A program made the position numbers and the translations under genes. Under the pieces are notes generated by a model, which was not told the origin of the DNA, did no database searches, and saw nothing but the letters and a program-made list of their open reading frames with translations. Shown here piece after piece: positions 3,700 through 14,048 of a DNA stretch of 37,666 nt. Source of the DNA: Planctomycetia bacterium (GTDB lineage Bacteria > Planctomycetota > Planctomycetia > Gemmatales > Gemmataceae). The stretch covers positions 1-37,666 of the forward strand of contig SYLG01000017.1 in assembly GCA_005808665.1 (NCBI GenBank). Direction: 5' to 3'. How positions within the stretch are numbered: position 1 is the stretch's first letter; the number at the start of each line of letters is the position of its first letter.

Positions 3700-5340
<1,641 letters not shown>

Positions 5341-7995: not shown

Positions 7996-8985
7996 ATGTT
8001 CCTTTTGGGGATAGAGTCTTCTTGCGACGAAACGGCCGCATCGGTTTTCACGGATGAGCCAAAAATCCTTTCAAGCGTGGTCGCCTCACAGGATCGCTTT
8101 CACTCCCGGTTTGGAGGGGTGGTTCCAGAGGTTGCGGCCCGGGCTCACCTAACCCAAATCATCCCCGTTTTTCGACAGGCCCTTGCCGAGGCGGGCATTG
8201 TTGCCCGTGACCTGGGAGCTGTGGCGGTACAAAACCGGCCGGGATTGGTGGGGTCTCTCCTGATAGGTGTCTCAGCAGCCAAAATGATAAGCGTAGCCCT
8301 TGGGATTCCCCTGATTGGAGTCGATCATATAGAGGGCCATGTTTATTCCTGTCAATTGGGATCTCAAAAAAGCATTTTCCCCTGCCTTGCCCTGATCGTG
8401 AGTGGGGGCCACACTTTGCTCCTTGATTGCCAGACCGCAACCCAATCCAGACGCATCGGACAAACCCGGGATGATGCGGCCGGTGAGGCATTGGACAAGG
8501 CCGCCGCCATGTTGGGTTTGGGATTTCCGGGAGGACCAGCACTGGAACGGATGGCTAACAAAGGCAACCCAAAGGCGTTTTTGTTCCCGCTTGGAATGCC
8601 CCAGGAGAGCAATCCCGACTTTAGTTTCAGCGGTTTAAAAACAGCTTTGCTTTATACCATCCGGAAACTGGATCAACCCCTTTCCGAAATGCAAAAGGCG
8701 GACCTTGCCGCCAGTTTTCTCCAAGCGGTAGTGCAATCCCTGGTTCGAAAATGCAAATTCGCCCTCAAAGCAACTGGCCACAAACGCCTTGCGGTCGGCG
8801 GAGGAGTGGCAGTCAATGGCCTTTTGAGGTCCCAATTAACCGACCTTGCCACAACCCTTGGGGTGGAACTCATTCTGGCTCCTGTGGCCTGGTGTACAGA
8901 CAATGCCGCCATGGCTGCGGTTTCTGTGGAATACCTTCGCCAAGGCAAAATCTCGCCGCCCGACCTGGACGCCCTGCCCTTATGA
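7996..8985 (+). CDS. tsaD: tRNA N6-threonylcarbamoyladenosine transferase TsaD
   Basis: Transfers the threonylcarbamoyl group from threonylcarbamoyl-AMP to A37 of ANN-decoding tRNAs, working with TsaB and TsaE. 329 residues, normal length. The ASKHA-fold start GIESSCDETAAS is at residues 5-16, and the metal-binding HIEGH motif supplies H111 and H115. Further family blocks follow: ALIVSGGHT, the DDAAGEALDKAA segment and GGGVAVNGLLR. It is the last gene of the larE-started run. Its partner tsaB is also in the window, 27 kb away on the other strand; tsaE and tsaC were not seen. Confidence 0.97.
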   Translation: MFLLGIESSCDETAASVFTDEPKILSSVVASQDRFHSRFGGVVPEVAARAHLTQIIPVFRQALAEAGIVARDLGAVAVQNRPGLVGSLLIGVSAAKMISVALGIPLIGVDHIEGHVYSCQLGSQKSIFPCLALIVSGGHTLLLDCQTATQSRRIGQTRDDAAGEALDKAAAMLGLGFPGGPALERMANKGNPKAFLFPLGMPQESNPDFSFSGLKTALLYTIRKLDQPLSEMQKADLAASFLQAVVQSLVRKCKFALKATGHKRLAVGGGVAVNGLLRSQLTDLATTLGVELILAPVAWCTDNAAMAAVSVEYLRQGKISPPDLDALPL

Positions 8986-9164: not shown

Positions 9165-9539
9165 ATGACAAAGTCAAGGATTGCACTGTCAGGGGTTTTG
9201 ATGTTTTTCGGGGCAGTCTCGGTTCAGGCCGATTCGACCTTCGGGCTTATCCCACTCAATGTGATTCGGCCCAACAAAGCGGACCTTGTTTTGCGTCAAT
9301 ACAATGCTTTCACCCCGCTTTGTTACAGCGGTGTACCTGTCCAATGGCCGAATGTAGACCCAACCGCCCGGCGATTCCCCCGATTGGGTCTTGGGGTTAG
9401 CCTGGGAATGGGCTGCAATACTTGCGGGAACTCTCAAGTCACCATTCCAGGTGCCGAGGGTGAAGTCCTGAGCGAAGGCGAAATCATGGACGGATCTGTC
9501 CGTCCCACCACCAAAATCCGGAACATTCTGGGTCGCTAA
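9165..9539 (+). CDS. Small secreted protein, antisense to the subtilisin gene tail
   Basis: 124 residues with a good Sec signal: MTKSRIALSGVLMFFGAVSVQA with likely cleavage before DS at 22/23. The mature part begins TFGLIPLNVIRPNKADLVLRQ and has a GMGCNTCGNS pair of cysteines near residues 83-90; no known domain was recognised. A TATACT at 9052-9057 could be a -10 box, but no matching -35 is seen. From 9189 on it lies opposite the last 116 codons of the protease frame with codons exactly aligned, so one of the two may be a shadow. The signal peptide extends upstream of the protease stop and is hard to explain by chance, which favours this gene being real. Confidence 0.55.
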   Translation: MTKSRIALSGVLMFFGAVSVQADSTFGLIPLNVIRPNKADLVLRQYNAFTPLCYSGVPVQWPNVDPTARRFPRLGLGVSLGMGCNTCGNSQVTIPGAEGEVLSEGEIMDGSVRPTTKIRNILGR

Positions 9540-11780
9540 ACCCGGAAAGACATTATTTAAACCGCCCTCGTGGAACAACTGATCCGCGAGGGTTTCTGCG
9601 TTTGTAGGCCTGTTTGTTTCCAATATGGTCCGCAGGAGGCCACCACTTCCCATCATGCTTGCGGAAACGCCAACCTTTCCAATGTGACTTGCTCCCCTGA
9701 CACGAATACTCTGGCCAACGCTTTTTTCAGGAACAAATCGTAGGGTCCAACCATTCAGGGTTCCCTGGTCTACCATAACCCGATCGGTAACGGAAAGGGT
9801 CCAATTTCCAGAAGCATTAATCTTGCCTAAATTCCCCATGCCTTTGGATGGTCGGTAGGATCCAGTATAGGGGGCAACCCCATCTGAAAATGCGGTGGTT
9901 GCCAAGTCTTCAAAAATAAGGTCACGGAAATTCCGTCCCGTAGCATTGCGATTAACCAACTCAAAAACCTTGCCTGCCGGAGATTTTAGAGTGATATAAA
10001 GATCGGATAAATCCGAGTGGGTTATGTTAAGGCCAACCTGAATGCGCTCTACCGTTACTCCTTTGGGAATGGAAAGGACGGAGGTACTTGTCCTGAGGTC
10101 CCGGATAGCCACTTTATTTGTATTTGACCAGGATACAGACCCAGCAAGGGTAGTTACCAACCGGAATGAATCTGTCGCCTCTCCTGATTTTCCGTTGTGA
10201 TTTTGATCCAGGGCGTTTCCATTAAGGTCCTTGACTCCCGCTTTTACTAAAAGAGTATAAGTACCAAGTCCTGTTTGGGTGGTCATGGACCCAACAAATG
10301 CCTTGGTGGATTGTCCATTAACCGCGACCCAGGTCAGGGGGATCATCTTTCCAGTAGGACTGGTGAGGGATATGTTGGGAGCAAGAGTAGCCAGATTGAT
10401 TGGCTCGGAAAATTCGATCCGGATTTGACTGATCTGGTCCGAACGGTTCCCTGAAAAGTCCCCGGACAAAACAAAAGGAAACACCTCATCGACCGCAAGC
10501 GTTTCCACTTCTGCCAGAGCCCTATCCAGATTGAGGCGGCCACCCGTGGTAGTTTTCCCCAAAAGGGATGCGGATAGGTCGCTTTGTTCCATTACGGCCT
10601 TGATGATTTCAACATAGCTCAAATCGGGCCGACGATCCCATAATAAGCTCAGGGCTCCTGTAACAAAGGGAGTTGCCATGGATGTGCCACTTAATAGGCC
10701 GAATTTATTCCCGGGAAGAGTGCTAATTATCTCCTCTCCGGGTGCGCCAATATCTACTGATGTCTTGCCGAAGTTACTAAACCACGAAAGTTGATCCTGT
10801 GCCGATGTGCTCGCCACCACAACCACATTGTCATGAATGAAACTGGCCGGATAGGAGGCATTTGTATCGATGTTCACCGATTCATTGCCGGCAGCTGCCA
10901 CGACCAAATGTCCCTTATTCCGGGCCCTGTCCATGGCCTCGGCAAGGGTTGTGCTAAAACCTGCCCCACCCCACGAATTGTTGGAAATCCTTGCTCCTTT
11001 GGAGACGGCATAATCCAAGGCGGATATTGCCCCTGTCAAGTCACCGAATCCTTGCGAATCAAGAAACTTCAGGGCCATAATGCGGGCGTTTGGATTGACC
11101 CCGGTTATCCCGATTTCATTGTTTGCATTGGCTGCTATGATACCCGCAATATGGGTGCCGTGACCATTATCATCCATGGGATTGCCCGTCCCATTCACAA
11201 AATTGGCACCGAAAACATCGTCTACAAATCCATTCTTGTCATCATCGATTCCATTTCCCGATATTTCCGCCGGGTTGGTCCACATCCTTGAGGCCAAATC
11301 CGGGTGGGTATAATCCACTCCGGTATCGATAATGGCGACAAGTGTGCCGCCTGTTCCCTGAAATCGGGAAAGAGCTGGCAAGGCATGAATGTCCGCCCCT
11401 GGAAAACCCCCGTCAGGCCCTGGATTTGCCAACCCCCATTGTTCCTGAAATAGTGGATCATTGAAGAAAAGTTTGGAATCCATCAACCGGTCCGCTTCAA
11501 CATGCAAAACGGACTTGTTAAGTGATATTTTGGCAAGGGCAGCTTCCATGGTTGTTCCGGCGGGAATCGACCACAGCCCAAGTTCCGGGAGCAAATCCCA
11601 AGTCTTTAAAAGTTGGCTTCCGGCAACCGGGTTGGGCCAATATTCCGGTCGAATCGAGGCATTTAGCGTAACAAAAATACCAGGCGTTGGATCAAAAGAA
11701 GCAGGGACTTCCCTGGATTCCAGGGATTCCAGTCGGGGAACAAACAATCCACGCATGCCCTTGCTCAAAGGGACACCCAC
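9189..11780 (-). CDS. Secreted subtilisin-like serine protease (S8) with P domain
   Basis: An extracellular endopeptidase, 863 residues from GTG 11780; an ATG at 11756 eight codons later is an alternative start. Residues 16-28 (RLESLESREVPAS) carry the LExLExRxVPA export signature, followed by a propeptide-like region. The catalytic triad is D152 (IIDTGVDYTHP), H207 (NGHGTH) and S367 (SGTSMATP), with N299 (AAAGNE) as oxyanion residue. A calcium-site-like DDDKNGFVDD segment lies near 179-188. Residues 430-545 resemble an Ig-like SbsA domain, and 565-685 a proprotein-convertase P domain ending GTLNGWTLRFVPE. The last 175 residues match nothing I recognise, and their final 116 codons lie opposite the gene at 9165-9539, so the true end may differ. 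It stands alone, 198 bases from nadE. Confidence 0.88.
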   Translation of the reverse strand: MGVPLSKGMRGLFVPRLESLESREVPASFDPTPGIFVTLNASIRPEYWPNPVAGSQLLKTWDLLPELGLWSIPAGTTMEAALAKISLNKSVLHVEADRLMDSKLFFNDPLFQEQWGLANPGPDGGFPGADIHALPALSRFQGTGGTLVAIIDTGVDYTHPDLASRMWTNPAEISGNGIDDDKNGFVDDVFGANFVNGTGNPMDDNGHGTHIAGIIAANANNEIGITGVNPNARIMALKFLDSQGFGDLTGAISALDYAVSKGARISNNSWGGAGFSTTLAEAMDRARNKGHLVVAAAGNESVNIDTNASYPASFIHDNVVVVASTSAQDQLSWFSNFGKTSVDIGAPGEEIISTLPGNKFGLLSGTSMATPFVTGALSLLWDRRPDLSYVEIIKAVMEQSDLSASLLGKTTTGGRLNLDRALAEVETLAVDEVFPFVLSGDFSGNRSDQISQIRIEFSEPINLATLAPNISLTSPTGKMIPLTWVAVNGQSTKAFVGSMTTQTGLGTYTLLVKAGVKDLNGNALDQNHNGKSGEATDSFRLVTTLAGSVSWSNTNKVAIRDLRTSTSVLSIPKGVTVERIQVGLNITHSDLSDLYITLKSPAGKVFELVNRNATGRNFRDLIFEDLATTAFSDGVAPYTGSYRPSKGMGNLGKINASGNWTLSVTDRVMVDQGTLNGWTLRFVPEKSVGQSIRVRGASHIGKVGVSASMMGSGGLLRTILETNRPTNAETLADQLFHEGGLNNVFPGLATQNVPDFGGGTDRSVHDFAFAQDFTLGTWNGDLRVPASIAAHSQANPKTQSGESPGGWVYIRPLDRYTAVTKRGESIVLTQNKVRFVGPNHIEWDKPEGRIGLNRDCPEKHQNP

Positions 11781-11978: not shown

Positions 11979-14000
11979 TCAAAACCAAGGGATCGAACCG
12001 AGATCCGATGGCATGCGCCAATCCCCTCTGGGGGATAAGCTTATTGTCCCAACTTTGGGGCCATCCGGTAAAGTGGATCGCTTGTATTGTTGGGTTGCAA
12101 AGCGGTGGAGAAAAACGCCCAACCAATGGCGGATCTCGTTTTCAGTCCAAGGTTTATCGAATTTGACCTGCCTCGCCAAAAAGAGAAGCTTTTCCGAGGA
12201 GGCTCCATACCTGAGAAAGTGGTAAAGGAAAAAGTCGTGCAATTCATAGGGTCCAACGGTCTTTTCGGTTTCCTGGGCGAAGGTACCATCATGAGTGAAT
12301 GGCAATAGTTCCGGGGAAATAGGCGTTTCCACAATGTCCAATAGAACTTTTTGAATCGGACCATCAAACTCCTGTCGGGCAGCATACTCCACCAAAAACT
12401 TTACCAGCGTTTTGGGTATGCTTGTGTTTGGGTTGTACATACTCATGTGGTCAGCATTAAATGTGCACCACCCTAATGCCAACTCGGACATATCCCCCGT
12501 TCCAACCACAAACCCACGGTTCATCAATAGCATGGTTCGCGTTCTGGCCTGGACATTTTCAAAAACCAAATCGGGTTGTCCCTGTTTCGTTTTCAAGGCC
12601 TCCATGAACCCAACCAAGTCCATGGATTGAATGTCGATTCCAAAAGGCTTGTGCTGCAATAATTTCAACTGGTCCAAACAGGACTGACGAATATCAATCC
12701 TTGCTGACCCCGTTTTTATTTGCTCCATCAAAGTTAGGGCATTGGCAAGGGTCCGACTTGAAGTTCCAAACCCAGGCATGGTCACGGCATCAATCCAGCT
12801 TCGGCCCAAGCCCAAGCGATCGGCCACCTTGGCACACACTAATAACGCCAGGGTCGAATCCAGGCCTCCCGAGACGCCAATTGCAACCCGTTCAAGGTTT
12901 AGTTTTTCGACCCTGCCCGCCAATCCAACCACTTGGGTCTGGAAAATTTCATGGCACCGCTCCGCCAAAGTCGATGGCTCAGAAGGAACAAAGGGGTGGG
13001 CATCCACGACACGGTAAAACCTTTTTTTCGGCGGTCCATCCCCAACAGAATTGCTATTCATGCAGCAATTGCGATATCGAATAGTCGGCTCCAGGCCCTG
13101 CCCAAAGGATTTCATTCGCAGTCGGTCCGTCTGCAGTTTGGCAATATCCACATCAGCCAAAATCATTTGGCTTTCAGGATGAAACCGTTCTCCCTGGGCC
13201 AAAAGGGATCCATTTTCAAGGATCATCAGGTCCCCATCAAAGACAAGGTCGGTGCTTGATTCACCGGGTCCCGCCGAGGCATAAACATATCCAGCAATAC
13301 ACCTTGCTGATTGGGCGGTGGCCAGGATCCGGCGAAATGGGGCTTTCCCGAGCACGGCATTGCTGGCACTCGGGTTCAGGATCAGGTGGGCCCCTTGCAT
13401 GGCCAAAAATCCACTCGGTGCTTGAGGTACCCAAAGATCTTCACAGATCTCAATCCCCATGCCAAACCCAAATGGCCTTTGGTCCGTAGGGTCCCATTTA
13501 AACACCAAATCCGTGCCAAAAGGAGTCCCTTGGAATGGGCCTGATTCCAACCAACCGCCCTGGACACCAAACCCGGGGGAGAAGTGCCTTTGCTCATAAA
13601 ATTCGGAGTAGTTGGGCAGAAACGATTTGGGAACAATCCCCTTTACTACTCCCCCTAAAACGACTGCGGCGACATTGTAAAGTTTGTCGCCATTGGCCCA
13701 AGGTAAACCAACCACCAAAGCCATGTGGGGCCATTTTTCCGAATATTGAACCACTTCCGTAAAGGCTTTCATGGCTGCCTTTAGTAATTGCGGCTGGAGG
13801 AACAAATCACCACAGGTATACCCTGTAAGGCAAAGTTCCCCAAATAGTATTACATCCGCCTCCTGATCCTGGGCCTTCCCTGCCAATTGGAGGATCCGTT
13901 TTGCATTGGACGCTGGATCAGCAAGAGCAACCTTTTGGCGGGCAGCAGCAACGCGAACATAGCCGTGTTGGGAAATCGTATCGGAAGGTGGGAGATCCAT
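11979..14000 (-). CDS. nadE: Glutamine-dependent NAD+ synthetase
   Basis: The last step of NAD synthesis: amidation of nicotinic acid adenine dinucleotide with ammonia channelled from glutamine. Two domains: an N-terminal nitrilase-type glutaminase with E55 (FGELCLTGY), K125 (PKSFLPNYSEFYE) and C186 (GIEICEDLW), and a C-terminal synthetase with the PP-loop SGGLDST at residues 377-383. The segment ARTRTMLLMN and the GTGDMSELALGW block follow. 673 residues, the size of the long, two-domain form. The frame is open to an ATG at 14027, but the CGGAGG ribosome site sits 6 bases before the ATG at 14000, so that start is chosen. It diverges from mqo. Confidence 0.96.
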   Translation of the reverse strand: MDLPPSDTISQHGYVRVAAARQKVALADPASNAKRILQLAGKAQDQEADVILFGELCLTGYTCGDLFLQPQLLKAAMKAFTEVVQYSEKWPHMALVVGLPWANGDKLYNVAAVVLGGVVKGIVPKSFLPNYSEFYEQRHFSPGFGVQGGWLESGPFQGTPFGTDLVFKWDPTDQRPFGFGMGIEICEDLWVPQAPSGFLAMQGAHLILNPSASNAVLGKAPFRRILATAQSARCIAGYVYASAGPGESSTDLVFDGDLMILENGSLLAQGERFHPESQMILADVDIAKLQTDRLRMKSFGQGLEPTIRYRNCCMNSNSVGDGPPKKRFYRVVDAHPFVPSEPSTLAERCHEIFQTQVVGLAGRVEKLNLERVAIGVSGGLDSTLALLVCAKVADRLGLGRSWIDAVTMPGFGTSSRTLANALTLMEQIKTGSARIDIRQSCLDQLKLLQHKPFGIDIQSMDLVGFMEALKTKQGQPDLVFENVQARTRTMLLMNRGFVVGTGDMSELALGWCTFNADHMSMYNPNTSIPKTLVKFLVEYAARQEFDGPIQKVLLDIVETPISPELLPFTHDGTFAQETEKTVGPYELHDFFLYHFLRYGASSEKLLFLARQVKFDKPWTENEIRHWLGVFLHRFATQQYKRSTLPDGPKVGTISLSPRGDWRMPSDLGSIPWF

Positions 14001-14006
14001 GAATTG

Positions 14007-14048
14007 CCTCCGGGATATTTTATACATTTTTCAACCGATCCGTTTCGA
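14007..14048 (-). promoter_or_regulatory. Possible nadE promoter and ribosome site
   Basis: On the minus strand a TCGAAA (14043-14048) and TATAAA (14019-14024) are 18 bases apart, a weak sigma-70-type match. CGGAGG at 14007-14012 is the ribosome site for the ATG at 14000. If the promoter is real the leader would be very short and begin near the ribosome site. Confidence 0.3.

Follow-up and report, generated by a model that had tools for sequence, protein, structure and literature searches.

A subtilase gene in codon-aligned antisense overlap with a small secreted-protein gene in a genus of Gemmataceae, a probable case of 3′ extension

The window analysed here is a stretch of 37,666 nucleotides from a Planctomycetia bacterium of the family Gemmataceae (assembly GCA_005808665.1, contig SYLG01000017.1, positions 1 to 37,666), in which a gene for a small secreted protein and a subtilase gene run towards each other and overlap tail to tail (Table 1). 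Codon starts are divisible by 3 in both frames, so that the codons of the two genes are exactly superposed over positions 9189-9539. A sequence-only reading of the window had placed the plus-strand frame opposite the end of a subtilisin frame with superposed codon boundaries, had counted 116 protease codons opposite the small gene (9192-9539) and had set the start of the signal peptide, hence the ATG, 24 bases past the protease stop (lower coordinate 9189); its coordinates, lengths, register and both counts are all correct.

Table 1. Genes, overlap and motif discussed in the text, with their positions in the window
Feature	Position	Strand	Remarks
tsaD	7996..8985	+	neighbour upstream of the small gene; retained in relatives G030 and G001
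Small secreted-protein gene	9165..9539	+	ATG start, 124 aa
Subtilase gene	9189..11780	-	GTG start, 863 aa
Convergent (tail-to-tail) overlap, 351 bp	9189..9539	both	codon-superposed, position 1 opposite position 3; 351 bp in G001 too
Protease stop TGA	9189..9191	-	faces Ser9 (TCA) of the small gene
New protease tail, 116 codons	9192..9539	-	antisense of the small gene; purifying selection on the tail not detected
VHDFAF, protease residues 764-769 (VNDLAF in the sister)	9474..9491	-	resembles the last residues of relatives' proteases, HDAIFMV-stop and ADMAFTM-stop
NAD synthetase gene	11979..14027	-	neighbour of the protease; retained in G001 and G020

Judged by the predicted domains of its product, the 863-aa ORF is a real subtilase gene: the protein carries a Peptidase_S8 domain (residues 145-401; 194.1 bits vs. 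a Pfam cut-off of 21.8), followed by Big_5 (450-528) and P_proprotein (577-682) domains, and the catalytic aspartate, histidine and serine motifs place these residues at D152, H207 and S367. Domains and motifs are those of the subtilases (PF00082) with a P domain (PF01483), from whose members outside the genus the window protease differs by a 116-residue antisense-derived tail not seen in relatives. The P domain is followed by a linker (690-747, with 57 residues past residue 690) and then by the overlapped tail (748-863). No stop interrupts the protease frame between the P domain and position 9189, nor at the equivalent place in the sister genome (G001), and the tail would therefore be made whenever the protease is translated. 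The whole protease, tail included, is matched in G001 at 65% identity, while outside the genus no protease match reached past residue 718 (E up to 1e-30, 59 genomes searched), and the C-terminal linkers of the proteases of non-overlapping relatives are variable. At the opposite end of the protein, residues 15-27 (window 11700-11738) form the N-terminal stretch PRLESLESREVPA, which we take to resemble the N-terminus of many large exported planctomycete proteins.

The small gene, by the features of its predicted product, is a real gene as well, encoding a signal-peptide protein with independent homologues. The Sec-type signal peptide (residues 1-22, predicted by eye) ends in an invariant Ala22 and precedes a conserved core, FGL...R-x-[YF]-N-A-F; both the Ala22 that closes the signal-peptide-like start and the R-x-[YF]-N-A-F core are invariant across ten aligned family members. 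A protein search retrieved a homologue with 72% identity in G001, of the same genus, and profile searches recovered members, within the family, from 25 of 95 genomes and, within the order and with a profile built from a broader alignment, from 32 of 102 (E up to 0.001). These homologues appear to form a planctomycete family of small secreted proteins marked by the R-x-[YF]-N-A-F motif, with the window's protein among them. The latter was matched by no Pfam or NCBIfam family (E up to 1) and by no solved structure (E up to 0.1), and a literature text search for the letters YNAF returned unrelated words only among the matches listed. A scan of the genome contigs gave one locus, again the G001 contig. 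Two weak matches to the small protein were dropped: one (G038, L008) lies opposite a long HEAT-repeat-like ORF and the other (G000:C116, L002) opposite an ABC-ATPase-like ORF, across stops, both ORFs being recognized by eye. Structure predictions from two-row alignments had mean pLDDT values of 37.9 and 30.7 for the two proteins; since even the well-known protease domain was not reproduced, nothing can be concluded from the low values for the tail.

Both translations have real homologues, and both frames are open in the sister genome. The sequence-only reading had named the contrary situation, one frame lacking homologues and broken in close relatives, as telling against it. G001 shares the register and the 351-bp length of the overlap, an insertion of four codons preserves both frames, and in both species the tail numbers 116 codons when counted from the stop of the small gene. 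Gene order is conserved between the 20.8-kb G001 contig and the window, which carries orthologues of the contig's genes. Given that both frames have real homologues and that a second species, about 70% identical at the protein level, has the arrangement as well, the overlapping pair is, to judge from these comparisons, beyond chance. A third genome of the genus (G002; L074, G002:C59) has a TsaD with 92% identity; its contig stops 23 bases past tsaD, before the region, and is hence uninformative on the overlap, and following this genome via tsaD and NAD synthetase did not reach the region of interest.

All 25 loci of the family-level profile search were examined, and a convergent subtilase of this kind was present in the available flank of 12 and absent from that of 13. 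Only two of the 12 convergent pairs overlap, by 351 bp each, and both belong to genus g1 (G000 and G001). The other ten, which represent four genera (g19, g22, g25 and g29) and include some near-copies of one another, do not overlap, and their stops lie 81, 81, 81, 63, 71, 4, 3, 3, 73 and 21 bp apart (range 3-81). The order-level search added seven further genomes, five of which were examined (G095 and G005, with no locus, and a second G084 match were left out), and no convergent subtilase was found in the flank of these five. That the small gene converges on a subtilase at 12 loci may be no more than a sign of old neighbourhood. In a tree of ten proteases a branch supported at 100/100 separated both overlap genes from the others; the tree was midpoint-rooted, without power to polarise by itself. 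Outgroup proteases are only about 44% identical and the genus branch of the tree is long (1.24), so that orthology depends on synteny besides sequence. An overlap gained once in the genus is the simplest account. Since ten of the 12 convergent pairs are non-overlapping and only the genus pair overlaps, the 3′ end of the protease gene was probably lengthened in the common ancestor of the genus, as in that option of the sequence-only reading by which the protease had gained a non-homologous tail through antisense read-through.

We consider it highly probable that the two genes were convergent neighbours, that the protease lost its stop in the genus ancestor and now reads antisense through the small gene, and that the resulting tail is tolerated. 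The ancestral state would have been two old convergent neighbours with a short spacer between them, where a hairpin is found in several relatives. The protease stop would have been lost in the genus ancestor via a point mutation, or via a deletion that took the spacer hairpin too, and the new frame would by chance have been the codon-aligned antisense register, which is naturally stop-poor. The protease would then have been extended by about 100 codons through the small gene, as far as the TGA that faces the signal peptide. Purifying selection on the small protein would have persisted, and the tail would have become an obligatory appendage of the protease, its sequence set by the small gene, tolerated and not selected.

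A refinement of this account, rather than an alternative to it, is that a single deletion took both stops together with the spacer hairpin, so that the small gene now runs on for about 20 codons into what was the protease end, and the protease into the small gene; we regard this as a tentative possibility. The motif VHDFAF (VNDLAF in the sister) resembles, inside the overlap, the ends of relatives' proteases (HDAIF, DMAF), and may be a remnant of the old protease C-terminus, a resemblance that is suggestive only. If the old C-terminus does lie inside the overlap, the small gene must have been extended by about 20 codons as well, and one deletion of the spacer and of both stops would account for this. 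Towards its C-terminus the small protein does align poorly with its relatives, and the scan found no such hairpin in the overlap genomes, but the motif is of 4-6 residues and was picked post hoc, and codons 105-124 of the small gene have no excess of protease-strand conservation (11 of 20 third positions differ).

The hairpin itself, strong and with flanking A and T runs, lies between the convergent stops in six of the ten non-overlapping relatives (L021, L022, L023, L024, L027 and L038), where it has the look of a putative two-way (bidirectional) terminator; the remaining four are without a strong terminator-like hairpin. A consensus scan, which detects consensus-like sites only, gave no terminator-like site around the overlap, be it in the window genome or in G001 (shuffled sequence averages 1.3 and 2.1). 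Without a terminator the two transcripts might pair, each damping the other. Such antisense-RNA coupling would agree with a hairpin that is present in six of ten relatives and missed by the scan in both overlap genomes; however, the scan has the limit just given, and four relatives without any overlap likewise lack the hairpin, and we think it unlikely. Distinctly unlikely, in our view, is the combined scenario in which one deletion fused the genes end to end, each C-terminus being encoded in the antisense of the other, and the loss of the terminator created an antisense-RNA-coupled unit of protease and secreted protein that was kept in the genus.

Selection on the two strands was compared in one species pair (window vs. 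G001), over 111 aligned codons of the overlap. Differences at positions 1, 2 and 3 of the small-gene codons were 0.17, 0.14 and 0.56, the NG86 dN/dS of the small gene was 0.117 within the overlap and 0.13 over its full length, and the small protein is under purifying selection. Counted likewise, the tail frame had a dN/dS of 2.2-2.5, which is the signature of a frame opposite a constrained one. The synonymous sites of the small gene are the first positions of the tail codons, so a constrained tail should slow them. No slowing was seen: unchanged four-fold sites were 18 of 47 in the overlap vs. 523 of 1504 in the orthologue pairs of eight neighbouring genes (Fisher P 0.64), and unchanged two-fold sites 17 of 30 vs. 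666 of 1191 (P 1.0), synonymous sites being near saturation, such that a weak constraint on the tail could escape the test. Tail identity between the species was 0.369, as compared to 0.371 predicted by regression from the antisense of ordinary genes at equal sense identity. Among control antisense windows at matched sense identity (148 of 614) the mean antisense identity was 0.38, and 85 of the 148 equalled or exceeded the tail (the windows were placed every five codons, so they are not independent of one another). Codon positions, four- and two-fold sites and antisense control windows did not, in this species pair, show both proteins of the overlap to be under purifying selection, and the tail looks like a passenger whose sequence is dictated by the opposite strand.

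The strand-wise comparison of substitutions that the sequence-only reading had proposed therefore separates the two frames, the small gene being constrained and the tail lying at the expectation for a shadow. Its suggestion that one frame is a shadow holds with regard to selection, as the tail evolves like passive antisense, and fails with regard to a spurious ORF, as no earlier stop occurs in the protease frame of either genome. The translation of both strands, its remaining option, would follow if both genes are expressed; the three options taken together are partly supported.

In the aligned antisense register stops can arise solely opposite TTA, CTA and TCA. Given the residues of the small protein and codon frequencies from eight flanking genes, a stop-free antisense past the present protease stop has a probability of 0.108 here and 0.289 in G001. 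When 111-codon windows were slid along the neighbouring genes, the antisense was open in 80 of 614 here, in 132 of 614 in the sister and in 15 of 614 in both. The openness of the antisense frame alone is unremarkable; a frame open in both species is allowed by chance, yet not likely (0.108 and 0.289). Counted from the stop of the small gene, the antisense of the ten non-overlapping relatives is open for 120, 68, 121, 82, 129, 3, 96, 17, 119 and 70 codons (the G104 small gene was taken from its match start, hence 103 codons only), i.e., for at least 96 codons in five of the ten. As the register is already often open in relatives, a stop loss in it would often yield a tail of this size, and since no protease reads the frame there, an open frame needs no selection. 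The protease stops differ between the two species, with a TGA opposite codon 9 here and a TAA, reached earlier, opposite codon 13 (TTA) in G001, as expected of a tail ending at the first available stop; TCA at small-gene codons 4 and 9 is common to both.

Another codon-superposed antisense ORF, of 430 codons, occupies positions 3721-5013 (+) of the window, opposite a chaperonin gene (3700-5322, minus strand; Cpn60_TCP1 match, 263 bits). Pfam gave no match to the antisense frame, which we presume to be a shadow.

Dual coding, in which the small protein and the protease tail would both be functional and selected, could account for a tail open over 116 codons from the small-gene stop in both species and for a four-codon insertion that leaves both frames intact. 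However, the identity of the tail is at the shadow expectation, with 85 of 148 matched controls as high or higher, the synonymous sites are unslowed, the protease stops at different codons in the two species and its matches outside the genus end by residue 718 at the thresholds given above, and we judge dual coding very unlikely. A frame run-through produced by assembly or sequencing error, conceivable in that both genomes are fragmented (186 and about 300 contigs), has a negligible probability in view of an identical overlap length in two species about 70% identical and of a codon-position pattern that is that of real coding DNA. On the probable account of a protease extended by stop loss through the small gene, an arrangement known from two genomes only, we regard the tail as an appendage that is tolerated on this exported enzyme.

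Long antisense coding overlaps in a bacterium have reportedly been described in E. coli O157 (pop opposite ompA, asa and laoB), where new ORFs lie within or opposite an old gene and expression data are available; in the present pair, instead, two old genes are involved, one extended into the other, and they are known from sequence alone. A limited literature search gave no planctomycete case of such an overlap among the matches listed, which is no claim of absence from print. For bacteria at large, the excerpted text of one survey counts 178 convergent overlaps of more than 60 bp, of which 124 are 3′ extensions and 54 possibly real, the latter mostly kept in very close species only, and considers most long overlaps in bacterial annotations to be errors (PMC2478687). 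Excerpts of two other studies report that the phase frequencies of E. coli convergent overlaps agree with stop-codon mutation and discuss terminators inside the coding sequence of the partner (PMC2174442), and argue that convergent overlaps require stop movement (PMC4161906). The overlaps described in these excerpts resemble the present one in being tail to tail, with one 3′ end longer than in orthologues and a partner of normal length; the present one differs in its length (351 bp), covering almost the whole small gene, and in its retention by two species whose proteins are about 70% identical, while pairs without overlap are known from four other genera. The pair, with two real genes, a protease longer at its 3′ end than its orthologues and an overlap in more than one species (G000 and G001), is one more convergent overlap by stop-codon movement (3′ extension), a known route.

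Annotation programs would tend to discard one of these two genes. The case shows both genes to be real, with non-overlapping relatives and a selected strand that can be read from codon positions, and it shows how a protein can gain a tail of 116 residues, the sequence of which another gene dictates. The codon-aligned antisense register explains the length of such tails, and a long antisense ORF, even one open in two species, need not be selected.
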